Below, one piece after another: positions 3,908 to 64,000 of a DNA stretch of 64,000 nt. Position 1 is the first letter of the stretch; every line of letters starts with the position of its first letter. Location: contig NZ_RZYA01000003.1 of assembly GCF_004005495.1 (NCBI RefSeq), forward strand, positions 434,001-498,000, written 5' to 3'. The position numbers were made by a program, and so were the translations under genes. Origin of the DNA: Streptomyces antnestii (GTDB lineage: Bacteria > Actinomycetota > Actinomycetes > Streptomycetales > Streptomycetaceae). Below the pieces are notes generated by a model, which was given only the letters and a program-made list of their open reading frames with translations, was not told where the DNA came from and did not search any database.

Positions 3908-3929
3908 GCGTTCCCGGACGAACAGGACG

Positions 3930-4021: not shown

Positions 4022-4060
4022 TCATGCCCGCACGGCAGGTCATGGCGCAGACTGGAACCC

Positions 4061-4490: not shown

Positions 4491-4524
4491 AGGCCCGCCC
4501 GTGGTGATGTGACCGGGCGGGCCT
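4491..4524 (+). terminator. Terminator between DUF3151 gene and tryptophan dioxygenase
   Basis: Perfect 11-bp stem AGGCCCGCCCG / CGGGCGGGCCT (4491-4501 with 4514-4524), 12-base loop, starting 17 bases after the DUF3151 stop codon, followed by a short T-containing stretch. It separates the DUF3151 gene from the kynurenine operon. Confidence 0.8.
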
Positions 4525-4631
4525 TGCCGTTTCGGGGCACCATTGCGGAGGATGCCGGTGGGGACCGGGGCCCCCGTGCCGGAATTCGGCAGGGGCGGAC
4601 CGCTACCCGGAGTACGTTCAAGGAGACAGCG

Positions 4632-45992: not shown

Positions 45993-46020
45993 CGTTACCT
46001 GAAGCTGGCGAATCCGTTGA
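45993..46020 (+). promoter_or_regulatory. Sigma-BldN-like promoter of the first chaplin
   Basis: CGTTAC (45993-45998), 16 bases, then CGTTGA (46015-46020). The published sigma-BldN consensus is CGTAAC-N16-CGTTGA, so only one base differs and spacing is exact. Predicted start point near 46027, about 50 bases before the ATG at 46077. Chaplin genes are known sigma-BldN targets. Confidence 0.75.
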
Positions 46021-46076
46021 ACCGGTATGCGGACGCGACCTCGCGGCCGTATCTGTCCAGTCATAAGGAGAACGTG

Positions 46077-46361
46077 ATGTCTCGCATCGCGAAGGCCGCC
46101 GCTGTCGCGCTCGGCACCGGCGCCGTGGTGATCAGCGGTGCCGGCCTGGCCATGGCCGACGCCGGCGCCCAGGGTGAGGCCGTCGGTTCGCCCGGTGTCA
46201 TCTCGGGCAACACGGCCCAGGTCCCGATCCACATCCCGATCAACGTCTGCGGCAACACCGTGAACGTCATCGGCCTGCTGAACCCGGCCGTCGGCAACAG
46301 CTGCGCCAACGAGGACGACCACGAGGGCGGCTACGGCGGCGACCACGGCTACGGCGGCTGA
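46077..46361 (+). CDS. Short chaplin with Gly/His/Tyr-rich tail
   Basis: 94 aa from ATG 46077, with AAGGAG at 46065-46070. Signal peptide of about 28 residues (KAAAVALGTGAVVISGAGLAMA/DA), then one chaplin domain: GVISGNTAQVPIHIPINVCGNTVNVIGLLNPAVGNSC with the two conserved Cys. Chaplins are hydrophobic amyloid proteins that coat aerial hyphae. Unlike typical short chaplins it continues past the second Cys with ANEDDHEGGYGGDHGYGG, an acidic/Gly/Tyr/His tail. Expressed from a sigma-BldN-like promoter and possibly repressed by the neighbouring MarR. Confidence 0.93.
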   Translation: MSRIAKAAAVALGTGAVVISGAGLAMADAGAQGEAVGSPGVISGNTAQVPIHIPINVCGNTVNVIGLLNPAVGNSCANEDDHEGGYGGDHGYGG

Positions 46362-47311: not shown

Positions 47312-47348
47312 GCCGTCCCCCTCCTTCTCCTTTGTCTCTCGGTGATGC

Positions 47349-47783
47349 TCAGAGCGCGTGGCGACGCAGTATCTGGTCGCCGAGCTCGTCCACGGCCCCC
47401 CTGGCCGCGGCCAGGGGGGTGGGGAACGACTGGTAGTGGTCGACCATGGTCAGATAGCTGCCGTCGGCGCGGCTCATCAGATGCAGCGGCCGGCCATCGA
47501 CCGTGACGTCCCAGAGTGCGGCGCCGTGAGCGGTGTGCGTGCGCATCGGGGCGTCGGCCCGCGTCCCACGGATGTGGCGGCCGCGGTAGGTCTCCTCGAA
47601 GTCCCCGCCGGCCGCGTCCTTCATGTCGTCGCGCGGCTCGCGGAAGGCCCGGCCGACGAGTGCGGCGGCCGGCACCACGGCGGCGGCCAGCGCGACGCCG
47701 ACCACCCGCCGCACCACGGTCCTGCGGCTGACGACCCCACGGCCGGCGGGGCCGACTCCCGCGGGCGACGTCTGGACGTCCAC
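47349..47783 (-). CDS. melC1: Tyrosinase cofactor/chaperone MelC1
   Basis: 144 aa from GTG 47783 (AAGGAGA upstream at good spacing). Tat-type signal: RRTVVRRVVGVALAAAVVPAAALV. Mature part has the MelC1 YRGRHIRG motif and DGRPLHLMSRADGSYLTMVDHYQSFPTPLAAARGAVDELG. MelC1 delivers copper to apotyrosinase and carries it out through the Tat pathway. Operon melC1-melC2. A short repeat of CATGACGAC-like 12-13-mers lies upstream (47821-47859). Confidence 0.94.
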   Translation of the reverse strand: MDVQTSPAGVGPAGRGVVSRRTVVRRVVGVALAAAVVPAAALVGRAFREPRDDMKDAAGGDFEETYRGRHIRGTRADAPMRTHTAHGAALWDVTVDGRPLHLMSRADGSYLTMVDHYQSFPTPLAAARGAVDELGDQILRRHAL

Positions 47784-47865
47784 TGGCGTCTCCTTCTGCA
47801 ACCTCTGGGCCTGCGGGCTCACATGACGACGGGCATGACGACTGGCGTGACTACGGGCGCGTCCG

Positions 47866-48372
47866 TCACGCGAGGTCGAGGACCGCCCCGGGCGCCGTCT
47901 GCAGGAGCGGCGTGCCGAGCGCGGCGTCCGGCAGCGTCAGGTCCGGCATTCCGAGCCGGTCGGCCCGCGGGCCGGTCAGCGGCGGGTTCACCGACGCTCC
48001 GGGGGTGGCCGTGTGCACGTCGGACCCCGGCGTCGACAGGCCCACGTGATCGATCTTGTGGTCCCCCGTCGCCTCGGACAGCGGCGCGAAGATCCGGGTC
48101 GCGGGCAGCTCACTGCTGAGCGGAACCGCAGGAAGGAGCGGCTCGGGCAGCATCCTCCCGGTGACGAACCGCGGGACGTCAGGCCTGCCGGGCACCGGGA
48201 TCGGCACCCCGGTCGACAACTCGGGCGCCTTCACATGCAGCGCGCTCTCCACACCGTTCAGCGGAACGGCTACGGGAGCCTGCTCACCCGCGGCGGCGGG
48301 AGCGGCCCCCGCGCCCGCGGCGGCGAGGCAGCCGGCGAGTACTGCGAGTGTCCCTCGGGCAGTTGACTTCAT
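47866..48372 (-). CDS. Small secreted protein of unknown function
   Basis: 168 aa. Signal peptide: MKSTARGTLAVLAGCLAAAGAGAAPAAAGEQ, with cleavage after AAAG/E or nearby. The mature part is Pro/Leu/Thr rich without Cys, with VPLNGVESALHVKAPELSTGVPIPVPGRPDVPRFVTGRMLPEPLLPAVPLSSELPATRIF. No domain recognised. It lies beside melC1 and in a locus with two chaplins, so a surface role is plausible but unproven. Confidence 0.75.
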   Translation of the reverse strand: MKSTARGTLAVLAGCLAAAGAGAAPAAAGEQAPVAVPLNGVESALHVKAPELSTGVPIPVPGRPDVPRFVTGRMLPEPLLPAVPLSSELPATRIFAPLSEATGDHKIDHVGLSTPGSDVHTATPGASVNPPLTGPRADRLGMPDLTLPDAALGTPLLQTAPGAVLDLA

Positions 48373-49847: not shown

Positions 49848-50132
49848 CTACTTGCCGAGGGGGAGGCCGCCGAGGAGTCCGGCCGGGGCGCCGGCACCGT
49901 CGTTGTTCAGGTTGTCCGCGGTCTTCTGCACTGTGTTGAGGGCCGAACCGCCCTTCCCGGTGTCGAGCATGTCGGTGCGCAGCGGCTGGGCGTCGCGGAC
50001 CGACTGGCTGCCGAGGGTGCCGAGGGTGCCGGTGAGGCTCGTCGGCGTGAGGTCGGAGGCGAAAGCGGGTGCGGCGACACCGGCGATGACCATGGATCCG
50101 GCGACGACGGCGGCGGCCTTCAGGGGCTTCAT
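49848..50132 (-). CDS. Small secreted protein of unknown function
   Basis: 94 aa from ATG 50132 (an adjacent ATG at 50135; AGGAAGG upstream). Signal peptide KPLKAAAVVAGSMVIAGVAAPAFASDL, then SLTGTLGTLGSQSVRDAQPLRTDMLDTGKGGSALNTVQKTADNLNNDG, a mature peptide of about 67 residues with no Cys. No chaplin or rodlin domain. A dyad (50188-50205) lies upstream. Role unknown; it sits within the chaplin locus. Confidence 0.75.
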   Translation of the reverse strand: MKPLKAAAVVAGSMVIAGVAAPAFASDLTPTSLTGTLGTLGSQSVRDAQPLRTDMLDTGKGGSALNTVQKTADNLNNDGAGAPAGLLGGLPLGK

Positions 50133-50187
50133 CATGTTCCTTCCTCGGGGTGACGATCTGTCACCAGCGACGCACGATTCAACGAGC

Positions 50188-50205
50188 GTTTCCGGCAACG
50201 GAAAC
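50188..50205. promoter_or_regulatory. Dyad upstream of secreted protein gene
   Basis: GTTTCCG-GCAA-CGGAAAC (50188-50205), perfect 7-bp arms, about 55 bases upstream of ATG 50132. TCAACG (50179-50184), complementary to a BldN-type -10 CGTTGA on the coding strand, precedes it but no matching -35 is found, so promoter assignment is weak. Confidence 0.35.
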
Positions 50206-50328
50206 TCTGCGGTCAGAGGATTTGCCGAACCCACTCGAAGGAAGGCCCGTGGAGTTCTCATATGAGATTTAGGAAGAGGTGAATTGTCGGCGCAGGCCCT
50301 CGAACAGGGGCGGGCCGGACACGAAAAG

Positions 50329-50399: not shown

Positions 50400-51083
50400 T
50401 CAGGAGGGCAGGGCCGGCGTCTGGGGCAGCGCCGGGGTCTGCGGAACTGCGGCGCTGGACGGGAGGGGGAGGCCGGTCGACGGGAGGGTGGGCAGCTTGG
50501 GCAGACCGGGCAGGGTCGGCGCGGGCAGGCCGCCGCCGAGCAGGGTGGCGGCGAGCAGGTTGACCAGGCCGGTCACGACGCCCGTGGCCGCCGTGGCCAC
50601 GCCCGCCACGTCACCCGCCGTGGACGCCTTGAGCAGGGCGTCGACCGCGGTCTGAAGCGCGGTCAGCGCGTCGCCCTTGACGTCCGTCGGGGCGGCCTTG
50701 GAGTCGTCGGGGGTGGCCGTCTTGGGGGTCGTGGGGGTGGCCGGGACCGAGGGGGTGGCGGGGGCCGCGGCCTTGGCGGCGTCGATGGCCGCCTTGATCG
50801 CGTCGGCGTGCTTCTGTGCGGCGTCGGCGGAGAGCTTTCCGTCGTCGGCCTTGAGGACTGCGGTGAGCAGGTCCGTGACGGGGGTGACGACGGAGCTCAT
50901 GCCGCCGAGCGCGGAGACCTGGCCCAGCAGCGCATCCGCTCCGGGAACCGGTGCGCGCAGGGCCTCGGTGCTGCTGACGCGTCCCGGGTCGCTGTCGGTG
51001 GCGAACGCGGGGGCGGTGGTGCCGAGGAGGATCGTCGCGCAGAGAGCGGTGGTAGCTATGCGCCGTACGGGCTGAGAAGGCAT
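50400..51083 (-). CDS. Secreted Ala/Pro-rich protein of unknown function
   Basis: 227 aa from ATG 51083 (MPSQPVRRIATTALCATILLGTTAPAFATDSD), a clear signal peptide. The mature part has GADALLGQVSALGGMSSVVTPVTDLLTAVLKADDGKLSADAAQKHADAIKAAIDAAKAAAP, a helical region, then Pro/Thr-rich spacer and LGGGLPAPTLPGLPKLPTLPSTGLPLPSS-type tail. No Cys in the mature protein. Family is seen beside chaplin genes in Streptomyces as far as I recall; no function is known. Confidence 0.72.
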   Translation of the reverse strand: MPSQPVRRIATTALCATILLGTTAPAFATDSDPGRVSSTEALRAPVPGADALLGQVSALGGMSSVVTPVTDLLTAVLKADDGKLSADAAQKHADAIKAAIDAAKAAAPATPSVPATPTTPKTATPDDSKAAPTDVKGDALTALQTAVDALLKASTAGDVAGVATAATGVVTGLVNLLAATLLGGGLPAPTLPGLPKLPTLPSTGLPLPSSAAVPQTPALPQTPALPS

Positions 51084-51279
51084 GTGTGTGCTCTTTCGGT
51101 GGTGTGTGTCCGAACTTGTGACCACCGTCGGATGGTTGAACGCACCGCGCAACCGAGCGGCGACACGCCGTGCGCGACCACCCTCGCCACTCGGCGTGTC
51201 GTGCCAGGTCATGTGCCCTTTCGGGGCGCGGGCGTTCGGCCTCGCGTCGTTCCCCGTACGGCGCAACGAACGCAAGAAC

Positions 51280-51324: not shown

Positions 51325-51564
51325 CTACTTGTTCACGCAGTGGTTGCCGAACGTCGGGTTCAGCAGACCGATGACGGTGACCGTGTTGCCGCAGACGTTC
51401 ACGGGAACGTGGACCGGAACCTGGACGACGTTGCCCGAGATGATGCCAGGGCTGCCGGCGGCGCCACCCTTCGCGCCGCTGTCGGCGGCGGCGACACCGG
51501 CGGTGCCGGCCAGGGCGGCGGCGGCAACGGTGGAAAAGACAATGGCCTTCGCGGTACGCGACAT
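51325..51564 (-). CDS. Short chaplin
   Basis: 79 aa. Signal peptide (KAIVFSTVAAAALAGTAGVAAA/DS) and one chaplin domain GIISGNVVQVPVHVPVNVCGNTVTVIGLLNPTFGNHCVNK with the two Cys, ending immediately after the second Cys as usual for short chaplins. Self-assembles into amyloid fibres on the aerial surface. A sigma-BldN-type promoter is predicted at 51622-51650. The GGAG Shine-Dalgarno is 9 bases upstream. Confidence 0.95.
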   Translation of the reverse strand: MSRTAKAIVFSTVAAAALAGTAGVAAADSGAKGGAAGSPGIISGNVVQVPVHVPVNVCGNTVTVIGLLNPTFGNHCVNK

Positions 51565-51863: not shown

Positions 51864-52958
51864 ATGCGTCATCCTCTGGGCTCACTCCTGCGTCGTCCGG
51901 CGGTGGGCGCTGTTTCTCTCGCCGCGCTGTTCGCGACCTGTGGAGCCGCAGCGGCGCCGCCGTCCCCTGAGGCGGAGAGCATCGCCTTCACCCAGCGGTA
52001 CCGGGTGCTGCAGCACGGTGGCGTGGTCCGGGCCGCCAACTCGGCGCTCACCTGCCGGGCCGGCGGATCGGCGAAGACCTCGTGCCCGGCGGCCCGTTCG
52101 GGCGGGGCGGCGGCCAACGGTGACTTCGACATGACGTACACGGACGTCGACCGGGACCCGCGCACGGACAACTCCAGCAGCGCGGAGGTCCGCCTGCCGG
52201 CCGGGGCGAAGGTCACGTACGCCCGGCTCTACTGGGGCGGGAACCTGCGTGCGGGGGAGCGGAAGCCCGCCGGGGACAGCAGACGGGTGCTCTTCCAGGA
52301 GCCCGGCGGGAGCCACCGGGAAGTCCTCGCCGACTCCCTCGTAGGGCACCGCGTCGCGGGCGGCGCCGACGCCTACCAGGCGTCCGCCGACGTCACCCGC
52401 CTCGTCCGCGCCTCCGGCGGCGGTTCGTACACCGTCGCGCAGATCGACGTGGCCAAGGGGCGTTCGGCGGCCGGGGCCTGCGGCGGCTGGACGCTCGTCG
52501 CCGCGTACGAGAAGCGGGCGGAGCCGCTGCGGCGCATCGCGCTGTGGGACGGGTTCGAGTCCTTCTCGGAGGGGCACCGCGGCCACACCGTCCGGCTCGG
52601 CGGGATGCCCGTCGCCGCCGGGGCGACCGGACGCGTCGGCATGGTCGCCTACAACGGCGACCGCGGTGTCACGGGTGACTCCCTGAGCGTCTCCTCGGGA
52701 CGCCGGGCCCGGCCCGTGGCCCTGCGGAACACGGCCAACCCGGCCGACGACGTGCTCAATTCGAGCATCAGTGAACCGGGACGCGCGCAGCCGCGAAGGG
52801 TCCCCGCGTACGCCAACACCCTCGGCTACGACTCGGACGTCTTCACGCTCGGGCGGGGCACCAGGCAGCGGGGGCCGGGACTCGACCTCCGCATGATCTC
52901 GCGGCGGGACACGGCCTGGATCGGCGTGCTCTTCGCGGCAGTCGACGCCGGGCCCTAG
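51864..52958 (+). CDS. Secreted DUF3344-type protein
   Basis: 364 aa from ATG 51864 (AAAGGGA upstream). Signal sequence: RHPLGSLLRRPAVGAVSLAALFATCGAAAAPPSP. Mature part reads FTQRYRVLQHGGVVRAANSALTCRAGG, then DVDRDPRTDNSSSAEVRLPAGAKVTYARLYWGGNL, ACGGWTLVAAYEKRAEPLRRIALWDGF, and LGYDSDVFTLGRG, the DUF3344 pattern of secreted, beta-rich proteins, some linked to surface attachment. It precedes the EPS operon, with a 35-base gap forming a hairpin. Might act on or bind the exopolysaccharide. Confidence 0.82.
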   Translation: MRHPLGSLLRRPAVGAVSLAALFATCGAAAAPPSPEAESIAFTQRYRVLQHGGVVRAANSALTCRAGGSAKTSCPAARSGGAAANGDFDMTYTDVDRDPRTDNSSSAEVRLPAGAKVTYARLYWGGNLRAGERKPAGDSRRVLFQEPGGSHREVLADSLVGHRVAGGADAYQASADVTRLVRASGGGSYTVAQIDVAKGRSAAGACGGWTLVAAYEKRAEPLRRIALWDGFESFSEGHRGHTVRLGGMPVAAGATGRVGMVAYNGDRGVTGDSLSVSSGRRARPVALRNTANPADDVLNSSISEPGRAQPRRVPAYANTLGYDSDVFTLGRGTRQRGPGLDLRMISRRDTAWIGVLFAAVDAGP

Positions 52959-52993
52959 CGCGTTTCCCGCCACCATGACCAAGGGAAACGCGC
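52958..52993 (+). promoter_or_regulatory. Hairpin sequestering the Shine-Dalgarno of the first EPS glycosyltransferase
   Basis: GCGCGTTTCCC (52958-52968) is perfectly complementary to GGGAAACGCGC (52983-52993). The 3' arm contains the only SD-like sequence (AAGGGA, 52981-52986) before ATG 52994, and the 5' arm begins in the stop codon of the upstream gene. Translating ribosomes reaching that stop would open the hairpin, so translation would be coupled to the DUF3344 gene; it could equally be a transcription terminator/attenuator. Confidence 0.65.
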
Positions 52994-54127
52994 ATGCACC
53001 TGACAGCGACACCCCCTGGACCGCGAGTCCTCCACGTCACCCAGCCCGTCGACGGCGGAGTGGCCCGCGTCGTCCGTGACCTGACCCGGGCCCAGCTCGG
53101 CGCCGGCATGCGGATCAGCGTGGCCTGCCCGCCCGACGGACCGCTGGCCGGGTCGCTGCGCAGCATCGGCTGCGACGTCCTGCCCTGGCAGGCGACCCGC
53201 TCGCCCGGGCCCGGCATCGCGCGCGAAGTACGCGGGCTCGCCCGGCTGGTGGACCAGGTGAAGCCGACCGTCGTCCACGCGCACAGCGCGAAGGCCGGAC
53301 TCGCCGCCCGCCTTGCGGTGCGCGGCCGGGTCCCCACCGTGTTCCAGCCGCACGCGTGGTCCTTCGAGGCCGTCGACGGTCCCACCGCCCGGCTCGCCCT
53401 GGAGTGGGAGCGCCGTGGCGCGCGCTGGGCCTCCCGCGTCGTCTGCGTCAGCGAGGCGGAACGGGCGACGGGGGAGCGCGCCGGGATCACCGCCCGCTGG
53501 GACGTCATCCCCAACGGGGTGGACCTCACCCGCTTCGCCCCCGCCACCGAACCGCGCACGGCCACCACCGACCCGCTCGTGGTCTGCGTCGGACGCATCT
53601 GCCGTCAGAAGGGCCAGGACGTCCTGGTGCGCGCCTGGCCCCTCGTGCAGGAGCGCTTCCCGAGGGCGCGGCTCGTGCTCGTCGGGGACGGGCCCGACGC
53701 GGCGGCGCTGCGCCGGCAGGCCACCGCCGCCGTGCGGTTCGTGGGTGCGGACGACCCCGTCCCCTGGTACCGGCAGGCCGACCTCGTGGTGCTGCCGTCC
53801 CGCTGGGAGGGCATGGCGCTGTCGCCCCTGGAGGCGATGGCCTGCGGGCGGCCCGCCGTCGTCACCGACGTGGACGGCGCCCGCGAGAGCATGCCCGCCG
53901 ACCTCGCGCCCCACTGCCTCGTACCCCCGGACGACCCCGCCGCGCTCGCCCGTGCCCTGACCGGTCTGCTGCGCGACCCCCACCGGCTCGGAGCACTCGG
54001 TGAGCTGGCATTGCGGCACGCGCGCACCCACCACGACGTGCGGCGCACCGCCGACGCGGTCGCAGACGTGTACCGCGAACTACTGGGCGCGGAGCCCATC
54101 GAGCGCAGGGAGCCCATCAACACGTGA
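52994..54127 (+). CDS. GT4 family glycosyltransferase (EPS cluster)
   Basis: 377 aa. GT-B retaining fold: RVLHVTQPVDGGVARVVRDLTRAQL at the N-terminus, AHSAKAGLAARLA, FQPHAWSFE, DVIPNGVDLTRF, VCVGRICRQKGQDVLVRAWPLV, and the C-terminal EGMALSPLEAMACGRPAVVTDVDG motif (E-x7-E donor-binding Glu). Transfers a sugar to a lipid-linked precursor on the cytoplasmic side. First gene of the tightly overlapping EPS operon (GTGA overlap with next). Sugar specificity unknown. Confidence 0.93.
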   Translation: MHLTATPPGPRVLHVTQPVDGGVARVVRDLTRAQLGAGMRISVACPPDGPLAGSLRSIGCDVLPWQATRSPGPGIAREVRGLARLVDQVKPTVVHAHSAKAGLAARLAVRGRVPTVFQPHAWSFEAVDGPTARLALEWERRGARWASRVVCVSEAERATGERAGITARWDVIPNGVDLTRFAPATEPRTATTDPLVVCVGRICRQKGQDVLVRAWPLVQERFPRARLVLVGDGPDAAALRRQATAAVRFVGADDPVPWYRQADLVVLPSRWEGMALSPLEAMACGRPAVVTDVDGARESMPADLAPHCLVPPDDPAALARALTGLLRDPHRLGALGELALRHARTHHDVRRTADAVADVYRELLGAEPIERREPINT

Positions 54128-55635
54128 GTGCGGAACGTACCGTTGCCTCCCCCGCGGGGCAGCCTCGCGCGACTGCCCCGAGCACCCTCCTCGCCTCGGT
54201 CGTCCCGCCACGTGCCGAGGCGGCCTGCCGGCCGGCCCCGGTGGGCGGACGCCCGGCCGCGCGGCACCCGTCCCCCACGTCGCTCCTCGCGGCGGACGGC
54301 ACGGCGGCGGTGCTCGGCACTCTGGGGATCGCGCCGGTCGAGGGCCACCCCCTGCTCGTGATCGCGCTGGTCGCCGCGCTCATGGTGGCGAACGCGCGCG
54401 CGGGGCTCTACCGCGGTGACGCGCCGCGCCTGCTGTTCGACGACCTGCCCGCGATCGCCGGGCGCATCGTGGCGGTCTGGTGCGTGACGGCGGCCGGGCT
54501 CGCCGCGTTCCCCGGGTTCGGCCCGCTGCCGGCCGCCGCGCTCGCCGCCGGGACCGCCCTGCACTGCCTCCTCGCGGGCGCCGGCCGCGGCCTCGTCTAC
54601 TGGCGGCGCCGGGAGGCCGCGGCGCGCCGCCCCTGCCCGACCCTCCTCGTCGGCCCCGAGACCGTCGCCCGGCAGGTCGCCGCCGCCCTCCTGCGCCACC
54701 CGCGCTCGGGTGTCCGCCCGGTCGGGATCCTGGCGGACAAGGAGCACGAACGGCCGCCCGATCACGACGGGCCCGAGCTGCCCGTCCTCTCCACGGCCGA
54801 CGACCTGCGCCGCGCGGTCATCCAGAACGGGGTGCGGCGGGCGCTCCTCCTCGAAGGCGCGACGGGCACCGCCTCCCCCGAGCGGGCCGCCTGCCTGTCG
54901 GTCCTCGCCGAACACGACTGCTCCGTATGGGAGTTCGACCCGCACCAGACGCCGAACGCGGCAGCCCCCTATCTGGCAGCCCCCTATCCGGCCGCCCCGC
55001 ACCAGGCCCGTCACCTCGCCGGATTCCGGTACCGGCCGTGGCCGCCCGCGCGGCGGCGCGGCAGTGCCGGCAAGCGCGCCCTCGACCTCGTCGTCTCCGG
55101 CGCCCTGCTCGTCCTGACCAGCCCCGTCCTGCTGGTGTGCGCCGTGTGGCTGCGCGTCACCGAGGGGCCCGGCGTCGTGTTCCGGCAGGAGCGCGTCGGG
55201 AAGGGCGGGAAGCCGTTCACGCTGCTGAAGTTCCGCACGCACCGCCCGAGCGACGCGATGGAGTCCGCCACGCGGTGGAGCGTCGCGGACGAGCGGCGGA
55301 TGCCGTGGTTCTGCCGGTTCCTGCGCCGCACATCGCTGGACGAGCTGCTCCAGCTGTGGAACGTGTTCCGCGGCGACATGAGCCTCGTCGGCCCGCGCCC
55401 CGAACGCCCGTACTTCGTCATGCAGTTCAGCCAGACCTATCCCGGATACGCCGAGCGCCACCGCATGCCGACCGGCATCACCGGCCTCGCCCAGATCCAC
55501 GGCCTGCGCGGCGACACCTCCATCGAGGACCGCTGCCGCTTCGACAACGCGTACATCGACAGCTGGTCGCTGTGGCAGGACGTCAGCATCCTGGTCCGCA
55601 CGGCGGCCGCGCTCGTACGTTCCACGGGGAGTTGA
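54124..55635 (+). CDS. Polyprenyl-phosphate glycosyl-1-phosphate transferase (EPS initiating enzyme)
   Basis: 503 aa from GTG 54124. N-terminal membrane helices (about residues 70-150), a soluble CoA-binding-like domain (ALLRHPRSGVRPVGILADKEH), then the catalytic bacterial sugar transferase domain: KRALDLVVSGALLVLTSPVLLVCAVWLRV, FRQERVGKGGKPFTLLKFRT, RRTSLDELLQLWNVFRGDMSLVGPRPERPYF. WbaP/WcaJ-type enzymes start a repeat unit by moving sugar-1-phosphate to undecaprenyl phosphate. The ATG/GTG overlaps the GT4 stop by 4 bases. Confidence 0.94.
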   Translation: MSAERTVASPAGQPRATAPSTLLASVVPPRAEAACRPAPVGGRPAARHPSPTSLLAADGTAAVLGTLGIAPVEGHPLLVIALVAALMVANARAGLYRGDAPRLLFDDLPAIAGRIVAVWCVTAAGLAAFPGFGPLPAAALAAGTALHCLLAGAGRGLVYWRRREAAARRPCPTLLVGPETVARQVAAALLRHPRSGVRPVGILADKEHERPPDHDGPELPVLSTADDLRRAVIQNGVRRALLLEGATGTASPERAACLSVLAEHDCSVWEFDPHQTPNAAAPYLAAPYPAAPHQARHLAGFRYRPWPPARRRGSAGKRALDLVVSGALLVLTSPVLLVCAVWLRVTEGPGVVFRQERVGKGGKPFTLLKFRTHRPSDAMESATRWSVADERRMPWFCRFLRRTSLDELLQLWNVFRGDMSLVGPRPERPYFVMQFSQTYPGYAERHRMPTGITGLAQIHGLRGDTSIEDRCRFDNAYIDSWSLWQDVSILVRTAAALVRSTGS

Positions 55636-55640
55636 CCCGC

Positions 55641-57254
55641 GTGACCGCCTCTTCCGCGGACGCCGGTCCGCGTACGGCTCCGGGACCCGCCGGTGTGCGG
55701 CCCGCCCCCGCGGCCGCGCTCGTCGCCGCCGCCGGCCGGTACGCGCCCGTGCTCCCGGTCGTCCTGATGGTCGCCGTGCTCGGGCTGCCCCTGGCGCCCG
55801 GCACCGCGGGCTCCGGGGGAGCCGGCCTGTCCGACGCCGTCTCCGCCCTCGTCGTCGCCGTGTGCGTGGCCGTCACGCTGCGGCGCGCCGAGCGCCCCCT
55901 GACCCGTACCGCCGCCCTCGTCCTCGGGCTGCCCGTCGTCGGGATCGCCCTCGCCGCGGCCGGCGCGGACTCGCCGTCGACGGCGGCCGTCGGCATGGTC
56001 CGGTACTGCCAGATCTTCGTCCTCGTCCCCGTGTCCGTCCTGGTCCTGGTCCGTGACCGCCGCGACTTCCGGTTTCTGGCCTGGTCGTTCGTGGGGCTCG
56101 CCCTGTGGCAGGGCGTCATCGGCGTCCAGCAGTACCTCACCGGGACCGGCGCCTCGTACATGGGCGAGGACATCCGCGCCGTCGGCACCTTCGGGCCCAC
56201 GGACGTGATGGGGATGGCGACGGTGGTGTCGTACGGGCTCGTGGCCGCCGTCGGCCTGGCCCTCGGCGCCCGCACCGCGGCCCGGCGCACCCCCGCCCTG
56301 CTGTGCGCGCTCGCGCTGCTCCTGCCGCTGGCCCTGTCCTTCAGCCGCGGCGCGTGGATCGCGACCGTCGTCGCCTGCGGCGCGCAGGTGCTGCTCGCCG
56401 GGCTGCGGCGCGCCGTCCGCCTGTTCGCCGTGGCCGCCGCGACCGCCGTGGTCCTGGTGGGCGGCCTCGGCGTCGGTACGGCGCTGCTCCAGGAGCGGAT
56501 GACCAGCATCACGCAGGTCACCGACGCCCCCGACCAGTCCGTCACGGACCGGTACACGATGTGGGCCGCGGCCGTCGGCATGTGGAGCGAGCACCCGGTG
56601 ACGGGCGTCGGCCTCAAGGGGTTCCCCGCGTACCGCGACAGCCACGCCTCGCTCGCGCTGTCCTCCGGCAGTGACACCGGGGGCGCGGGCGCCGCGTTCG
56701 CGCGGCAGCCACTGCTGTCCCCGCACAACATGTACCTGCTCATCCTCAGCGAGCAGGGCCTGATCGGCCTCCTTGGCCTCGCGGGCAGCTGGCTCGCGCT
56801 GCTACTGCTCGCCCTGCGCCGCCTCGGGCGCGGCGCGGGCGAGCGGTCTGTTGGGGGCGAGCGGTCTGGTGCGGGCGGCCCGCCCGGTGCTGGTGGGCCG
56901 TCCGGGGCGGGCGAGCGGTCCGGTGGGGTCGGGCGAGCCGGTGCCGGCGAGCGGTCTCGCGCGGGCGGGCGATCCGGCGCGGGCGGGCGATCCGGTGCGC
57001 GACACGGTTCCGGCGTGTGCGAGCGGTCTGGTGCGGGCGGGCGGCCCGGTGCTGGTGGGCGGTCCAGTGCAGGCGGGCGGTCCGGTGCGGAGTGCGGGCT
57101 CGTCGCGTGCGGGCTGCTCGGCTGGCAGCTCGTGGACTTCGTGTACGCCGACATCGGCGGTCCCTCGACCGTGCTGACCGGCCTCGTCATCGGGCTCGCC
57201 GCCTGGTGGGGCCTGGCGCCGCAGGCGCCCCCGAAGGAGGCGGCGGCGCCGTGA
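55641..57254 (+). CDS. O-antigen ligase/polymerase (Wzy)-like membrane protein
   Basis: 537 aa from GTG 55641. About 11 hydrophobic helices; conserved O-antigen ligase features include LALSFSRGAWIATVVACG and the large loop WSEHPVTGVGLKGFPAYRDSHASLAL...LSPHNMYLLILSEQGLIGLLGL (His in PHNMYL). Residues 400-485 are an about 86-residue Gly/Ser/Arg/Ala repeat (GERSGAGGRP) encoded by a degenerate minisatellite at 56838-57095, inserted between two membrane helices. It should polymerise or ligate lipid-linked repeat units outside the membrane. The GTGA overlap leads into the flippase gene. Confidence 0.88.
   Translation: MTASSADAGPRTAPGPAGVRPAPAAALVAAAGRYAPVLPVVLMVAVLGLPLAPGTAGSGGAGLSDAVSALVVAVCVAVTLRRAERPLTRTAALVLGLPVVGIALAAAGADSPSTAAVGMVRYCQIFVLVPVSVLVLVRDRRDFRFLAWSFVGLALWQGVIGVQQYLTGTGASYMGEDIRAVGTFGPTDVMGMATVVSYGLVAAVGLALGARTAARRTPALLCALALLLPLALSFSRGAWIATVVACGAQVLLAGLRRAVRLFAVAAATAVVLVGGLGVGTALLQERMTSITQVTDAPDQSVTDRYTMWAAAVGMWSEHPVTGVGLKGFPAYRDSHASLALSSGSDTGGAGAAFARQPLLSPHNMYLLILSEQGLIGLLGLAGSWLALLLLALRRLGRGAGERSVGGERSGAGGPPGAGGPSGAGERSGGVGRAGAGERSRAGGRSGAGGRSGARHGSGVCERSGAGGRPGAGGRSSAGGRSGAECGLVACGLLGWQLVDFVYADIGGPSTVLTGLVIGLAAWWGLAPQAPPKEAAAP
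56838..57095. repeat. Degenerate minisatellite inside the Wzy-like gene
   Basis: About 258 bases built from degenerate copies of GGCGAGCGGTCTGGTGCG and GCGGGCGGTCCGGTGCG (15-18-bp periods). It keeps frame and encodes Gly/Ser/Arg/Ala-rich sequence; one Cys-containing copy (GSGVCERS) is present. Length is likely to vary between strains. Confidence 0.85.
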
Positions 57255-58921
57255 CCACTCCCACCGCGGACAGCGACACCCGCCCGGCCGCCGGCGGTCT
57301 GCCCGTCCAGGCCGCCGCGGCGCGGCGCCCGCCGAAGTCCGCCACGGGTCCGAGCGGCCGCCTCGCGAGGGCGGCGATGCTCACGGCGGTCCTGTCGGCC
57401 GCCGGTTCGGTCCTCGGCCTCGCCCGCGACCAGTCCCTCGCCCACCTGTTCGGCGCCGGTACGGAGACGGACGCCTTCCTGGTCGCCTGGACGGTCCCGG
57501 AGTTCGCGTCCACGCTCCTCATCGAGGACGGCCTCGCGTTCGTCCTCGTGCCCGCGTTCAGCGCGGCCATCGCCCGCCGCGCGCGCTCCGGCGGCCGGGA
57601 TCCCGTACGGGCCCTCGTCTCGTCGTCGCTGCCCCGCTTCGGCCTCGCGTTCCTGGTGGCGGCGGTGCTGTTCATCGCCGGTGCGCCCGCGCTCGTCCAC
57701 GTCCTGGCGCCGGGCCTGCCCGACCAGCGGCTCGCCGCCGACTGCACCCGGCTGACCGCGACCTGCGTCCTGACGTTCGGCCTGACCGGCTACTGCAGCG
57801 CGGCGCTGCGGGCCCACGGCTGCTACGTGCCGCCCGCCGCGATCTACGTCGCCTACAACACCGGCGTCATCGCCACGATGCTCGCGGGCGGGACGCGCTG
57901 GGGTGTGCGGTCCGCGGCGATGGGGGTGGCCGTCGGCGGCTGTCTGATGGTGGCGGTCCAGCTGCCCGCGTTCCACCGGAGGCTGAGCGGTGGGAAGGCG
58001 GACACGGTCCGCGCGCCCGGCAAGGCGCCGGACGAGGCGGCGCTCAACGGCCGGGCCGTGCACCTCGGGCTCATCGCCGCCGTCCTGACGTTCGCCCTGT
58101 GCAGGCAGTCGCAGGTGTTCATCGAGCGCTTCCTCGCCTCCCCGCTCGCCGCCGGCTCCATCTCGCACCTGAACTACGCCCAGAAGGTCGCCCAGCTGCC
58201 GATGGTGCTGTCGCTGATGCTGTGCACCGTCACGTTCCCGGTGGTGGCGCAGGCCGTGGCGCGCGGTGACCTCGCGGCGGCCCGCGCCCGCGTGGAGCGC
58301 GACCTCGGCCTCGCCGCCTGCGTCGTCCTCGCCGGCGCCGCCGCGGTCTTCGCCTGCGCCCCGCAGATCGTCCATGTGCTGTTCCAGCGCGGCGCGTTCA
58401 CCGCCGCCGACACCGCCGCCACGGCCTCCGTCATGCGCGTGTACGCCCTCGGCCTCCTCGGCCACTCCATGGTGGGCGCCCTGGTCCGCTCCTACTTCTC
58501 GGCGGGCCGCCCCACCTGGTACCCGGTGGGCGCGATGGCCGTGGGCACGGCCGCCACCGCGGGCGCGGGTGCGTGGGCCGTCGGCCCCTGGGGCGTACGG
58601 GGCATCGCCGGCGCCAACGCCTTCGGGATCACGCTCACCGCCGTACTCCTGCTCGCCGCGATGAACCGGCGCGGGGTCCCCGTCGACGTCACCAAGGTCG
58701 TGGCCGGACTGGTCAAACCGCTGCTCGCCGCCGTGGGCGCGACCGTGGCGGGCCTGCTGGCCGCGGCCTCCTGCACCTCGCCGCTCGCGGCGGGCACGGC
58801 CGGATGTCTCGCCGTCCTCGCCGTGTTCTGCGTGCTGCTGTGGGCGCTGCGGGCCGACTGCCTGGCGTCCCTCGTTCCCGTTGTCCGCCCCGCGAACAGA
58901 AAGCCCCGGCATGCCCGTTGA
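57251..58921 (+). CDS. MurJ/Wzx-like lipid-linked oligosaccharide flippase
   Basis: 556 aa from GTG 57251. About 14 transmembrane helices; MurJ/MVF superfamily segments: AAMLTAVLSAAGSVLGLARDQSLAHLFGAGTETDAFLVAWTVPEF, VLVPAFSAAIARR, FIERFLASPLAAGSISHLNYAQKVAQLPMVLSLMLCTVTFPVVAQ. Expected to flip the undecaprenyl-linked EPS repeat unit. It is unlikely to be the essential MurJ because it lies in the EPS operon. The last 11 bases overlap the deacetylase gene. Confidence 0.9.
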   Translation: MTTPTADSDTRPAAGGLPVQAAAARRPPKSATGPSGRLARAAMLTAVLSAAGSVLGLARDQSLAHLFGAGTETDAFLVAWTVPEFASTLLIEDGLAFVLVPAFSAAIARRARSGGRDPVRALVSSSLPRFGLAFLVAAVLFIAGAPALVHVLAPGLPDQRLAADCTRLTATCVLTFGLTGYCSAALRAHGCYVPPAAIYVAYNTGVIATMLAGGTRWGVRSAAMGVAVGGCLMVAVQLPAFHRRLSGGKADTVRAPGKAPDEAALNGRAVHLGLIAAVLTFALCRQSQVFIERFLASPLAAGSISHLNYAQKVAQLPMVLSLMLCTVTFPVVAQAVARGDLAAARARVERDLGLAACVVLAGAAAVFACAPQIVHVLFQRGAFTAADTAATASVMRVYALGLLGHSMVGALVRSYFSAGRPTWYPVGAMAVGTAATAGAGAWAVGPWGVRGIAGANAFGITLTAVLLLAAMNRRGVPVDVTKVVAGLVKPLLAAVGATVAGLLAAASCTSPLAAGTAGCLAVLAVFCVLLWALRADCLASLVPVVRPANRKPRHAR

Positions 58922-59720
58922 CACACGACGCAGCGCGCCGCGAGCCGCCGCGACCACCATGCAGTGGCTCCCCGACCGCACCCGGCGACTGCTCCCGGAC
59001 CCGCCGCTGTGGGTGGCGATGTACCACTCCGTGGACGACTGCCGCGACGACCCGTACCGCGTCACCGTCTCCCCCGAACGCCTCCAGGAACAGCTCCGAC
59101 GGCTGCGCCGGCGCGGGCTGCGCGGGGTGAGCATGACGGAGCTCCTCAAGGCCCGCGCCCAGGGCACCGACCGCGGCCTCGTCGGGCTCACCTTCGACGA
59201 CGGCTACGGCGACTTCGTCGACAACGCCCTGCCGCTCCTGCGCCACTACGACTGCGGCGCCACCCTGTTCGTCCTGCCCGGCCGCCTCGACGGCGTCAAC
59301 GCATGGGACCCGCTCGGCCCGCGCAAGCCGCTCCTGTCGGAACGCGGCATCAGGACGGCGGCGGCCGCGGGCATCGAGATCGGCTCCCACGGCCTCACCC
59401 ACGTCGACCTCACCCGCGCCGACGCCCCCGTCCTGCGCGCGGAGACCGAGGACAGCCGAAGGCGCCTCGAAGAGCTGACCGGCGGCGAGGTCACCGGCTT
59501 CTGCTACCCCTACGGCACCGTCGACCGCCGCGTCATGGACGCCGTCCGCCGGGCCGGGTACCGCTACGCCTGCGCCATCTCGCCGGGCAACCTCACCGGC
59601 GACCTCGCGCTGCCCCGCGTCCACATCGGCCAGGAGGACGCGCCCTGGCGCCTGGAACTGAAGCTGCGCCTGCACCGCCTGCGCCGCCGCTCGCGCACCG
59701 CGCCGGAGGCCCGTACATGA
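58911..59720 (+). CDS. Polysaccharide deacetylase (NodB-type)
   Basis: 269 aa from ATG 58911. Motifs: TFDDGYGDF (catalytic Asp and metal Asp), SHGLTH (metal His pair), FCYPYGTVDRR and a YACAISPG end. No clear signal peptide, so action is cytoplasmic or on lipid-linked intermediate at the membrane. It would remove N-acetyl groups from an amino sugar or O-acetyl groups; this implies a hexosamine in the polymer. Overlaps the next glycosyltransferase by 4 bases (ATGA). Confidence 0.92.
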   Translation: MPVDTRRSAPRAAATTMQWLPDRTRRLLPDPPLWVAMYHSVDDCRDDPYRVTVSPERLQEQLRRLRRRGLRGVSMTELLKARAQGTDRGLVGLTFDDGYGDFVDNALPLLRHYDCGATLFVLPGRLDGVNAWDPLGPRKPLLSERGIRTAAAAGIEIGSHGLTHVDLTRADAPVLRAETEDSRRRLEELTGGEVTGFCYPYGTVDRRVMDAVRRAGYRYACAISPGNLTGDLALPRVHIGQEDAPWRLELKLRLHRLRRRSRTAPEART

Positions 59721-60913
59721 CGGCCATGAGGACGCTGCACGTCATCACCGGCCTGGGGACGGGCGGCGCCGAGCAGCAGCTGCGGCTCCTGCTCCGCCAT
59801 CTGCCCGTCCACAGCGACGTGGTGACCCTGACCAACCCGGGCGCCGTCGCGCGCGGCCTGACCGCCGACGGGGTCCGCGTCACCCACCTCGGCATGACCG
59901 GCAACCGCGACCTCGGAGCCCTGCCCCGGCTCACCCGCCTGGTGCGCGAGGGGCGCTACGACGTCGTGCACACCCACCTGTACCGCGCCTGCGTCTACGG
60001 CCGGTTCGCCGCGCGCCTCGCCGGTGTCCGCGCCGTCGTCGCCACCGAGCACTCGCTGGGGGAGAGCCAGATGGAGGGGCGCCCGCTGTCCGCCGGTGTC
60101 CGCGCCCTCTATCTGGCGGGCGAGCGGATGGGACGCGCCACCCTGGCGGTCTCCCCGTCGGTGGCCGAGCGCCTCGCCCGGTGGGGCGTGCCCCGGCACC
60201 GCGTCCACGTCGTCCCCAACGGCATCGACGTGGACCGCTTCGCCCACGACCCGGAGCGCCGCGCCGCGACCCGCCACGTGCTGGGCCTGCACCGGGACGA
60301 CTTCGTCATCGGGGGAGTCGGCCGCCTGGTGCCCGGCAAGCGGTTCGACGTCGTCGTCCGAGCCCTGGCCCAACTGCCGGACTACGTAAGGCTGTTGCTC
60401 GTCGGTGGCGGGCCCGAGGAGGAGCGGCTGCGCGGGCTCGCCCGGGAACTCGGCGTCACGCGCCGGGTCGTGTTCGCCGGGGAACGCCCCTACGCCTCGC
60501 CGTCGGGCCGCGCCGGAGACCCGGATCTGCCGGCCCTCATGAGCGCGATGGACCTGCTCGCCTCCCCGTCCGCCGACGAGGCGTTCGGCCTCGCCGTCGT
60601 GGAGGCACTCGCCGCCGGCCTCCCCGTTCTCTACGTCACCTGCCCCGCCGTCGACGACCTGCCGCCGCACCTGGAGACGGCGGCCGTCCGCGTCCCCGGC
60701 GACCCGGAGTCGTTCGCACGGGAGGCACTGCGGATCGTGGCGGCCCGCCCGTCCGGCCGTGCCCCGTCACCGGCCGCACGGCACTACAGCATCGCCCGCT
60801 CCGCCGAACAGCACCTGCGGCTGTACGAGGCTGCGATGGACGGCGCGCGTTCGACTGCCCGAGACCCCGACTGTCCGATCCGACTGTCCGAGACCCCGAG
60901 AGTTCGAGAGTGA
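59717..60913 (+). CDS. GT4 family glycosyltransferase (EPS cluster)
   Basis: 398 aa. MRTLHVITGLGTGGAEQQLRLLLRHL start, VVHTHLYRACVYGRFAARLAG, TEHSLGE, HVVPNGIDVDRF, IGGVGRLVPGKRFDVVVRAL, then SADEAFGLAVVEALAAGLPVL (donor-site Glu). The C-terminal end has tandem short repeats (60862-60910) coding for RLSETPRVRE-like residues. Four bases separate its stop from the next gene. Confidence 0.93.
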   Translation: MTAMRTLHVITGLGTGGAEQQLRLLLRHLPVHSDVVTLTNPGAVARGLTADGVRVTHLGMTGNRDLGALPRLTRLVREGRYDVVHTHLYRACVYGRFAARLAGVRAVVATEHSLGESQMEGRPLSAGVRALYLAGERMGRATLAVSPSVAERLARWGVPRHRVHVVPNGIDVDRFAHDPERRAATRHVLGLHRDDFVIGGVGRLVPGKRFDVVVRALAQLPDYVRLLLVGGGPEEERLRGLARELGVTRRVVFAGERPYASPSGRAGDPDLPALMSAMDLLASPSADEAFGLAVVEALAAGLPVLYVTCPAVDDLPPHLETAAVRVPGDPESFAREALRIVAARPSGRAPSPAARHYSIARSAEQHLRLYEAAMDGARSTARDPDCPIRLSETPRVRE

Positions 60914-60917
60914 GTGA

Positions 60918-61526
60918 ATGATGACCGTGAAGCGCCTCCCGCTGTGGTCGCTGATCCTGGCCGGCGTCCTCCTGGGCGGCCTCGCCGGCGGCCTGTACGG
61001 CGTACTGAAGCCACCGCAGTACTCCGCCACCAGCTATGTGATCGCGGTGCCCGACGAGAAGTCCGACCCGCAGACCGCGCTCGGCTTCGCCCAGGCGTAC
61101 GGCCGCGTCGCCACCCAGATCGCGGTGCTCGGCGACGCCCAGGTGTGGGCGGGCGTCCCCGTGAAGGTCCTCCAGGACAGTGTGACGGCGCAGACCTCGC
61201 CGGACGCGCCGATGATCGCCGTCTCGGCCACGTCCGCACGTCCGGGCGAAGCCGCCGACATGGCCAACGCCGTGGCGAGGGCACTCACCGTCGACGCCGG
61301 CCACACGCAGGACAGCACCCAGGTGAAACTCCTGCAGTTCTCGCGCGCCGTGAAGCCCACCGGGCCGTCGTCGCTGTCCCCCGTGGTCACCGCCCTCGTG
61401 GGCGCCAGCGCGGGCGGCCTCCTCGGCGGGCTCGTGATCCTGGTGCGGCCCCGGCGGGAGCGTACGGGCACGACCGCGACCGTCCCCGGGCCCGCTGTCG
61501 CCGCGGACCTGCACGGGAGCGTCTGA
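60918..61526 (+). CDS. Wzz/YveK-type chain-length or polysaccharide export regulator
   Basis: 202 aa from ATG 60918. Two transmembrane helices (LPLWSLILAGVLLGGLAGGLYGVL, near residues 7-30; VVTALVGASAGGLLGGLVILV near 160-180) flank an extracytoplasmic domain containing YSATSYVIAVPDEK and SVTAQTSPDAPMIAVSATSARPGEAADMANAVA, the Wzz pattern. It lacks a fused or adjacent tyrosine kinase. The stop overlaps the next start (TGATG). Confidence 0.85.
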   Translation: MMTVKRLPLWSLILAGVLLGGLAGGLYGVLKPPQYSATSYVIAVPDEKSDPQTALGFAQAYGRVATQIAVLGDAQVWAGVPVKVLQDSVTAQTSPDAPMIAVSATSARPGEAADMANAVARALTVDAGHTQDSTQVKLLQFSRAVKPTGPSSLSPVVTALVGASAGGLLGGLVILVRPRRERTGTTATVPGPAVAADLHGSV

Positions 61527-62656
61527 TGCGGGCGGGGGGAGGCGGCCTGTCGGTCGAGGTGTGCACCGACGGCGGGCGCTTCGGCGCCCTGGGCGCGGAC
61601 TGGGACGCGCTGTACCGCAGGTCGCGGACGGCCACCCCGTTCCAGAGCCACGCCTGGCTGCACTCGTGGTGGCTCTCGTACGGGACGCGGGGCGGCCTGC
61701 GCGTGGTCCTGGTCCGCGACGGCGGGCGGCTCGTCGCCGCGGCCCCGCTGATGCGGCGGTGGCGGCCCGTACCCGCCCTGGTGCCGCTGGGCGGCGGCAT
61801 CTCCGACTTCTGCGACGTCCTCGTGGACGACGGCACCGGCGAGCCCGGCGACCTGTCGCGCCGGGCGGCCCGCGCCCTCCAGGACGCACTGTGGCGGCTC
61901 GCCCTCACCCACGTCATCGACTTCCGCGAGGTGCGCCCGGGAGGCGCCGTCGAGCGGCTGTACGACCGGTGGCCGGGACCGAGGCGCCGCCTCGACGACT
62001 CGCTCTGCCTGGAACTGCCGCCCGTACCGATGGACGACATCGTGAGCCGGCTGCCGCGCGCCCGCGCCCAGCGCGCCCGCGCCAAGATGCGCAAGCTGGA
62101 CGCCCTCGGGATCGAGCGCCGCGTCGTCCCGCGGGACGAGGTCGACGACTCGGTACGCCGCCTCGTGGAGCTGCACCGACTCCAGTGGGAGGGCCGCAAG
62201 GTGACGGCGGAACACCTCCGCCCCCGCTTCTCCGAACATCTCACCCGCTCCGTCGCGCTCATGGCGAGATCGGGCGACGCGGTCGTGACGGAGTTCCGGA
62301 TCGACGAGACGGTCCTCGCCGCCGACCTGACCTTCCTGTCCCCGCGCCTCGCCGGCGGATACCTGTACGGCGCCCACCCCGGCCTGCGCGAACGCAAGGC
62401 CGACGTGGCCACGATGCTGCTCCGCTCGTGCAGCGAGCACGTCCAGGACCGCGCGTCCGGCTCCCTGAGTCTGCTGCGCGGCGACGAGCCGTACAAGCAC
62501 CACTGGCGCCCGGACAGCGTCGTCAACCAGCGCTTCGTCCTGGCCCGGACGGCCACGGCGCCGGGGATCGCCCTCGCGGTCGGCGACGTGACCGCCCGGC
62601 ACCTCGCCAAGAAGGCGCTGCTCGCGTGGAAGGCCCGGGGCGGCGGCACGTCGTGA
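61526..62656 (+). CDS. GNAT-fold/FemAB-like N-acyltransferase (BioF2-like)
   Basis: 376 aa from ATG 61526. Similar to CelD/BcsL-type and FemAB-like acetyltransferases found in polysaccharide clusters: TPFQSHAWLHSWWLSYG, VLVRDGGRLVAAAPLMRRW, RHRLQWEGRKV-like segment (LHRLQWEGRKVTAEHL), GGYLYGAHPGLRERKADVATMLLRSC and LSLLRGDEPYKHHWRPD. Likely adds an acyl group to a sugar or amino sugar of the EPS. Last gene of the forward operon. Confidence 0.85.
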   Translation: MRAGGGGLSVEVCTDGGRFGALGADWDALYRRSRTATPFQSHAWLHSWWLSYGTRGGLRVVLVRDGGRLVAAAPLMRRWRPVPALVPLGGGISDFCDVLVDDGTGEPGDLSRRAARALQDALWRLALTHVIDFREVRPGGAVERLYDRWPGPRRRLDDSLCLELPPVPMDDIVSRLPRARAQRARAKMRKLDALGIERRVVPRDEVDDSVRRLVELHRLQWEGRKVTAEHLRPRFSEHLTRSVALMARSGDAVVTEFRIDETVLAADLTFLSPRLAGGYLYGAHPGLRERKADVATMLLRSCSEHVQDRASGSLSLLRGDEPYKHHWRPDSVVNQRFVLARTATAPGIALAVGDVTARHLAKKALLAWKARGGGTS

Positions 62657-62684
62657 CGACCGTGCCGCCACAGGGCCCGGCGGC

Positions 62685-64000
62685 TCAGGAGCGCCGCGAC
62701 CACCAGTCGAAGCGCAGGCACAGCTTCCCGCCGAGCCAGTACTCCACCCAGTCGCCGAGGTCGAGGGGCGCGCAGTTGGGCGGCGGGGTGACCGGCGGGG
62801 TCACGGGCGTCGTCGGCTCGGTCGGCTCGGTGGGCTCGGTGGGCGTAGGAACCGGCGGCACCGAGGGCTCCAGGCGCCCGGAGAGCATCGACCGGTACAC
62901 CTGCGAGGCCTTGGGGTTGTCGTCGCACTGCCACACACCGTGCGGGCAGTAGTCGGTGATCGTGTTGTAGAGCGGCTTGTGCTCGTCGATCCAGTCGAGC
63001 ATGCGCCGCACGTACTCCGGGTTGTCGCCGTTGCGGAACAGGCCCCACTCCGGATACGAGATGGCCTTGTCGTGCGCCTTGGCGAAGTCGACCTGCTGCT
63101 GGAGCCCGTACGGCTCGGAGACCTGCCGGGCGAACGACTCGCCCTCGGGCTGGTCGTAGGAGTCCATGCCGATGACGTCGACGACTTCGTCGCCCGGATA
63201 ACACTTGGTCCAGGGGACGGCGTCCAGGCCCCGGCTGGGCGTGAAGTCGAAGCGGAACTTCTGCCCGGGCACCGACCGCATCACGGTCACGATCCGCTTC
63301 CAGTACGCCTTCCAGGCCTCCGGGTCGGGCGCGCACCGGTGCGTGTACGTCGTCCCGTTCATCTCCCAGCCCGGCACGATCACGGTGTCCGGGATCTTCA
63401 GGTCGACCAGGCGCCGGGCGAGGGCTCGGAAGTGCTCGTCGAAGTCGCCGGCGGCGCCCTGCCGCAGCAGCGAGCCGACCTCCGCGTCGTCGACGTGCTC
63501 CTCGTTGTGGTCCAGCATCGGGACGTTGAGCACGAAGAGCCGGTCGTCGCGCTCGCGCCGCCACTTGGCCCAGGCGTCCAGGAATCCGGGTGCGCCCTCG
63601 ATGTTGCTCCACCGGTCGCCCGGCAGGTATGTGTGCCCGACGCGCAGCTCGGAACCGCCGAGCCACTTGCTGAGCCGAGCCATCCGCTGCACCCCGCTCG
63701 GCCCGTAGTCCAGATAGGCGCCGAACGCGGGGAACGCGGAGCCGCCGGGCTGGGGGTCGGTCTGGGGATCGGCCGGAGGGTCGGCTTGAGGGTCGGTCTG
63801 AGGGCTCGTCATCCCGCCGGTGGGGGTGGGCGTCGGGGTGAGTGCGGGCGTGGGCGTGGTGGGCGTCGGGCGCGGAGTGAACGCCGGCGTGGGCACGGCG
63901 GGTGTGGCCGGCGGCTGCGCCACCCCGGGTGCGGGCGACGCGGATTCCGCCGGTGGCGTGTCACCGGGTGAGGCGGCCCCGGCCGTCCCGGCGCCGACGG
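62685..64000 (-). CDS. GH26-type glycoside hydrolase (5' end outside window)
   Basis: 437 residues visible; the frame remains open through base 64000, so the N-terminus, probably with a signal peptide, is outside. The visible N-terminus is Pro/Thr-rich (PTPTPTG) and then GAYLDYGPSGVQRMARLSKWLGGSEL, IVPGWEMNG (probable acid/base Glu), VIGMDSYDQP, ISYPEWGLFRNG (probable nucleophile Glu), ending in a Thr/Pro/Glu linker and a C-terminal domain with CAPLDLGDWVEYWLGGKLCLRF. GH26 includes beta-mannanases and 1,3-xylanases. It converges with the EPS operon and may trim or degrade that polymer; 29 bases separate their stops. Confidence 0.82.
   Translation of the reverse strand, partial: VGAGTAGAASPGDTPPAESASPAPGVAQPPATPAVPTPAFTPRPTPTTPTPALTPTPTPTGGMTSPQTDPQADPPADPQTDPQPGGSAFPAFGAYLDYGPSGVQRMARLSKWLGGSELRVGHTYLPGDRWSNIEGAPGFLDAWAKWRRERDDRLFVLNVPMLDHNEEHVDDAEVGSLLRQGAAGDFDEHFRALARRLVDLKIPDTVIVPGWEMNGTTYTHRCAPDPEAWKAYWKRIVTVMRSVPGQKFRFDFTPSRGLDAVPWTKCYPGDEVVDVIGMDSYDQPEGESFARQVSEPYGLQQQVDFAKAHDKAISYPEWGLFRNGDNPEYVRRMLDWIDEHKPLYNTITDYCPHGVWQCDDNPKASQVYRSMLSGRLEPSVPPVPTPTEPTEPTEPTTPVTPPVTPPPNCAPLDLGDWVEYWLGGKLCLRFDWWSRRS

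Follow-up and report, generated by a model that had tools for sequence, protein, structure and literature searches.

What does a run of polysaccharide genes make when it lies among the chaplin and rodlin genes of a Streptomyces, and where would its product act? The question is raised by a stretch of 64,000 nucleotides from Streptomyces antnestii (the window; assembly GCF_004005495.1 of 8.93 Mb, contig NZ_RZYA01000003.1, G000:C43:434001-498000), which carries at its right end the operon considered here. Positions preceded by C43 are in contig numbering and all others count from the first base of the window. Judging from the gene content, we consider it likely, with a probability of about 0.72, that the locus encodes a conserved pathway of the Wzx/Wzy type, by which mycelial actinomycetes produce a heteropolysaccharide of the cell surface or the extracellular space.

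The plus strand from 51864 to 62656 is occupied by nine genes, neighbours overlapping by 1–11 bases or being spaced by no more than 35 bases. A convergent GH26 gene on the minus strand closes the unit and brings it to ten genes. Families were assigned by Pfam and NCBIfam profile searches of the window proteins, with scores compared to the model cut-offs; all the genes that the initial annotation had placed in one overlapping run were recovered in this way. In order, the genes are:

51864..52958, plus strand: secreted DUF3344 protein, accessory, alternative start at 51825 (PF11824, E = 6e-5, below cut-off; hydrophobic N-terminus)
52994..54127, plus strand: GT4 glycosyltransferase a, GT4a (PF13692, E = 2.8e-37)
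54124..55635, plus strand: initiating polyprenyl-phosphate sugar-phosphate transferase (PF02397, Bac_transf, E = 1.7e-58; TIGR03025, 310.8 bits, cut-off 295.6)
55641..57254, plus strand: Wzy-like polymerase (PF04932, Wzy_C, E = 9.1e-19, 68.2 bits, cut-off 31.7; several hydrophobic segments)
57251..58921, plus strand: MurJ/MVF-family flippase paralogue, putatively in the Wzx role (PF03023, E = 1.1e-58, 199.3 bits, cut-off 27.4)
58911..59720, plus strand: CE4 poly-/oligosaccharide deacetylase without signal peptide (PF01522, Polysacc_deac_1, E = 6.1e-28, 97.7 bits, cut-off 23.1; motifs TFDDG, SHxxxH and YPYG)
59717..60913, plus strand: GT4 glycosyltransferase b, GT4b (PF13439, E = 1.7e-26)
60918..61526, plus strand: short Wzz-like chain-length protein, 202 residues, no kinase (PF02706, E = 2.1e-4, below cut-off; hydropathy)
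61526..62656, plus strand: GNAT-type (Acetyltransf_6) N-acyltransferase (PF13480, E = 9.1e-24, 84.7 bits, cut-off 22)
62685..64000, minus strand, start codon at 64127, 127 bases beyond the window: secreted GH26-fold glycoside hydrolase, 480 amino acids (PF02156, E = 1e-6, 28.8 bits, cut-off 20.2)

The same gene order, which the initial annotation had proposed to look for elsewhere, was conserved in many genomes of several genera, and this excludes a chance arrangement. A Wzy orthologue was present in 41 genomes of an even sample of 61 congeners. Across the family, 73 of 101 genomes had one, and these came from 6 of 17 genera. A class sample of 297 genomes yielded it, apart from the genus, in a single further family; outside the Streptomycetaceae the hits were restricted to Streptosporangiaceae-type genera (Planomonospora, Nonomuraea, Actinomadura). 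A scan of named genomes with GH26 found the same unit in Planomonospora, Planobispora, Nonomuraea, Thermoactinospora and Actinomadura. Each of the 61 long loci fetched with GH26 as the sole query contained the genes for Wzy, the flippase, the deacetylase, GT4b and the Wzz-like protein, and these five core genes recurred in every one of the 34 other long loci from the Streptomycetaceae. GH26 itself was found in 40 of the 41 Wzy-positive congeners versus 3 of the 20 Wzy-negative ones, two of these three being incomplete assemblies. Other members are less constant: the GNAT gene is optional (missing in Planomonospora, Planobispora and some Streptomyces), and DUF3344 is limited to some Streptomyces, about half of the close relatives carrying it. 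GT4a opens the core in the Streptomycetaceae and adjoins GH26 in the other group. One cluster (L051, genome G010, 93% complete) had no matches to Wzy, the flippase and Wzz and only a partial match to GNAT, owing to gene decay or to sequencing error.

The enzymes expected of such a pathway were identified with unequal clarity. The initiating transferase scored above the TIGR03025 cut-off, and the PF04932 score points to a Wzy-type polymerase, a ligase being the alternative weighed below. The Wzz-like protein reached 21.9 bits with PF02706 (cut-off 25.5) and 23.4 bits with TIGR01006, far under the cut-off of that model, and has a hydrophobic segment near each end. A flippase was present as the initial annotation had it, although not of the classical Wzx type: the Pfam and NCBIfam scan of the operon found no PST-family Wzx, and the sole flippase gene is of the MurJ/MVF type. 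That it might be the canonical MurJ of the genome was rejected, as a separate MurJ lies at C43:207179-208603 with a higher score (404.9 bits, versus 200 bits for the cluster flippase) and the two are 22% identical. The cluster flippase is thus a dedicated paralogue, and we only infer that it works in the manner of a Wzx. Since a PST-type Wzx is absent, the operon is best called a variant of the Wzx/Wzy pathway. The earlier description as a full Gram-negative-style lipid-linked pathway was sound as to lipid-linked Wzx/Wzy assembly; its "Gram-negative-style" is misleading, because the operon showed neither an outer-membrane export gene nor a tyrosine kinase, and precedents exist in the actinomycete Actinoplanes (PMC13390465).

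The deacetylase carries the CE4 motifs and lacks a hydrophobic N-terminus, so that it probably acts in the cytosol. Together with the N-acyltransferase it makes the amino-sugar polymer of the initial annotation plausible, and the best reading of these genes is a polymer containing a de-N-acetylated, perhaps re-acylated amino sugar. The GNAT protein had no relative with a solved structure at E ≤ 0.1. For the DUF3344 protein no relative was found in the PDB by sequence, and its structure model (predicted local distance difference test, pLDDT, 43) was too poor for use.

Mannose, also suggested initially, found no support. The hydrolase does follow the operon, as had been noted, in convergent orientation and with its start outside the window. 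Its structure model (pLDDT 74.8) has a (beta/alpha)8 fold, nearest to the lichenase CtLic26 (2cip/2bv9, Z = 21.8), followed by the mixed-linkage xylanase AlXyn26A (20.1), a beta-1,3-xylanase (19.0) and mannanases (17–19), at sequence identities of 14–18%. The comparison of folds thus gives no support to a mannanase reading, the modelled fold being closer to the lichenase and the xylanases; such similarity does not reveal the substrate, and mannose is not implied. The motifs WEMNG and PEWG, which hold both presumed catalytic glutamates, were invariant across 35 sequences. At the C-terminus (approximately 62685-62760, minus strand) a proline-rich linker precedes a two-cysteine motif, CxPLDLGDWVExWLGGKLC, which is conserved in most Streptomyces copies and is possibly a binding or anchoring module. 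Distant GH26 relatives from other actinobacteria (28–36% identical) had polysaccharide genes around them in three of the seven loci read: GT4, Wzy_C and acyltransferase genes in L110, a polysaccharide flippase in L111, and initiating transferase, nucleotidyltransferase, epimerase and GT2 genes in L113. The remaining loci showed no polysaccharide genes among the few neighbours scanned. The three clusters are unrelated, which suggests that exopolysaccharide clusters of actinobacteria recurrently include GH26 as an accessory.

We propose the following course of assembly. The initiating transferase would load a sugar-1-phosphate onto undecaprenyl phosphate, and the two GT4 enzymes would lengthen the lipid-linked unit to about three sugars in all. 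The CE4 enzyme, probably in the cytosol, would strip an N-acetyl group, and the GNAT enzyme, which most lineages possess, would re-acylate the freed amine. The MurJ-type flippase would then turn the lipid-linked unit to the outer face, where Wzy would polymerise the units under the length control of the Wzz-like protein, and the secreted GH26 enzyme would cleave the polymer, whether to release it, to trim it or to turn it over. Since the GT4 family is a retaining one, the beta bond required by GH26 may be made by Wzy.

The site of action is suggested by the surroundings, in which both a PF03777 (chaplin) gene and an NF041022 (rodlin) gene adjoin the operon. The flanking features are:

51325..51564, minus strand: short chaplin, 79 amino acids, divergent from the operon (PF03777, E = 8.3e-29, 99.7 bits, cut-off 21)
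46143..46310 (G000:C43:480143-480310), plus strand: second chaplin domain, in the open reading frame 46017-46361, upstream of the tyrosinase genes (PF03777, E = 1e-27)
C43:499020-499397: rodlin, past the window end and beyond GH26 (NF041022, 89.9 bits, cut-off 75)
approximately 1.4 kb past the GH26 start, outside the window: LCP glycopolymer transferase (TIGR00350, 145 bits, cut-off 62)

These flanks, the conservation across genera and the MurJ paralogy of the flippase go beyond the initial annotation. A chaplin gene lay within 15 kb of Wzy in at least 25 of the 41 Wzy-positive congeners, compared with about 1.3 expected under random placement, a figure that is descriptive, the shared ancestry of the genomes causing the comparison to overstate significance. 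With rodlins counted as well, the number rose to at least 29 of 41. The placement varies, chaplin or rodlin genes being found upstream (L042, L048 and the genus g124), downstream (L036, L038, L043) or on both sides. In g124, a genus of the same family, both adjoin the operon in five of five loci. Actinomadura carries chaplin-repeat genes 4–6 kb from GH26; in L134 a three-repeat chaplin protein (4514-5551, PF03777, E = 6.8e-25) is found beside a sortase gene (3860-4450), approximately 5 kb from GH26. In Streptomyces, where the locus is located among chaplin and rodlin genes, the product would act most plausibly at the surface of aerial hyphae and of spores, and from this position we tentatively suggest a role there. 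It is conceivable, if rather doubtful, that the operon supplies aerial hyphae and spores with a glycan layer on or in which the chaplin and rodlin amyloids assemble, and that GH26 remodels this layer during development. The rodlet layer would then have a dedicated polysaccharide partner encoded within the chaplin/rodlin region. As developmental proteins, chaplins and rodlins are textbook examples; a conserved polysaccharide assembly line among their genes would be a missing partner, which may help to build the water-repellent coat of the aerial hyphae and spores or to anchor it.

Besides the shared ancestry, several observations weigh against our interpretation. The Wzz match falls under its Pfam cut-off, and the flippase is MurJ-like, so that its substrate is a presumed one. 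No chaplin lay nearby in 15 loci from four other genera of the Streptomycetaceae or in the Nonomuraea/Planomonospora-type loci, so that the function of the polymer cannot depend on chaplins everywhere. Conversely, 20 of the 61 Streptomyces lack Wzy, yet all have chaplins. Co-occurrence of rodlins with Wzy was also rejected (28 of 41 genomes with Wzy versus 16 of 20 without). The chaplin-free loci and this lack of association indicate that the pathway predates the chaplin link or does not depend on it, and the role at the aerial surface has the standing of a hypothesis. They also favour the most serious alternative, in which the product of the same pathway is a vegetative exopolysaccharide or capsule of general function (adhesion, pellet cohesion, desiccation) and the chaplin/rodlin surroundings are merely inherited synteny. 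This is a real possibility, short of an even chance; it has to accommodate a linkage that survives differing arrangements, upstream in some loci and downstream in others, and that involves a different chaplin type in Actinomadura.

The LCP gene raises a second alternative, namely a secondary wall polymer, a glycopolymer of the cell wall that LCP would attach to peptidoglycan, instead of a free exopolysaccharide. An LCP gene is also near in L155, L185, L189 and L190, but in just those few relatives, and the secreted hydrolase fits release or trimming equally well; we regard this alternative as unlikely. Within the heteropolysaccharide pathway that we prefer, the nearby LCP transferase could, as a further step, join the polymer to peptidoglycan, and the scarcity of this neighbour makes this a weaker point of the model. 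Finally, it is improbable that Wzy_C acts as a glycan ligase, with a single oligosaccharide being carried across by the flippase for glycosylation of a secreted protein (e.g., DUF3344 or the chaplins) without any polymer, for although the Wzy_C family spans O-antigen ligases as well as polymerases and the best NCBIfam match is a putative O-glycosylation ligase model, that match is far under the cut-off (55 versus 188 bits), the Wzz-like gene present in 95 of 95 long loci fits polymerisation, and many loci have neither DUF3344 nor chaplins.

Between the two chaplins lie the tyrosinase genes MelC1/MelC2 (46454-47822), an arrangement resembling what we take to be the S. coelicolor order chpG-melC-chpF. 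In that species chpG is sco2699, chpF sco2705, chpA SCO2716 and chpD SCO2717 (PMC5650626). By this numbering chpF and chpA are separated by ten genes, the same number as in the unit from DUF3344 to GH26, and the order in the congener L038 is MelC2, chaplin, ten genes, chaplin, rodlin, rodlin. From numbering and order we infer that SCO2706-2715 would be the S. coelicolor counterpart of the operon; a literature search with six S. coelicolor tags in this range returned nothing relevant. Beside the chaplin, the minus strand encodes three small secreted proteins (47866-48372, 49848-50261 and 50400-51275) with no confident Pfam family, and their homologues hold the same place in several congeners. 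A shared promoter of the sigma-BldN type was also considered: a motif of this type matched one site at the chaplin (51649, minus strand), yet it was present in just 3% of the chaplin upstream regions used as positive control, which makes the comparison uninformative.

How does the operon compare with known systems? The literature searched for the cluster gave no characterised match, in agreement with the initial annotation, which had not recognised a characterised pathway. Both GT4 enzymes, the polymerase and the deacetylase showed weak likeness to models of the XrtA/PEP-CTERM system; this candidate was rejected, all matches being far under the equivalog cut-offs. No exosortase match was found among the ten operon proteins scanned, the rest of the genome not having been searched for one. 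The holdfast (Hfs) pathway of Caulobacter, which makes an adhesin polysaccharide, is not known to include a GH26 enzyme. It resembles the operon in that the deacetylase HfsH and the GNAT-type HfsK are proposed to act on the same amines, and differs in being Gram-negative and in the binding of cyclic di-GMP by HfsK, the two systems having been compared by description (PMC5362036). The Streptomyces systems MatAB (poly-N-acetylglucosamine) and CslA/GlxA (a cellulose-like glucan) likewise provide surface glycans in adhesion, through synthase-type routes in contrast to lipid-linked Wzx/Wzy assembly; chaplin fimbriae reportedly need a glycan as anchor (de Jong et al. 2009, quoted after the review PMC8166509), a part that this review reports for the CslA glycan. 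The actinomycete Wzx/Wzy clusters wps-1, wps-3 and imp of Actinoplanes missouriensis are active in spore-bearing structures (PMC13390465). Compared by description, wps-1 shares a GH26 protein with the operon and wps-3 the deacetylase, GT4 and acyltransferase-type genes, whereas wps-1 uses GT2/GT26 enzymes and sulfotransferases, the authors class the Wzx proteins of their clusters as polysaccharide biosynthesis and transport domain proteins, and no one cluster has the gene order of the operon (PMC13390465). To the knowledge of those authors, no Wzx/Wzy cluster with a GH26 enzyme had been characterised (PMC13390465); a GH26-linked cluster of the type described here occurs in 41 of the 61 Streptomyces sampled.

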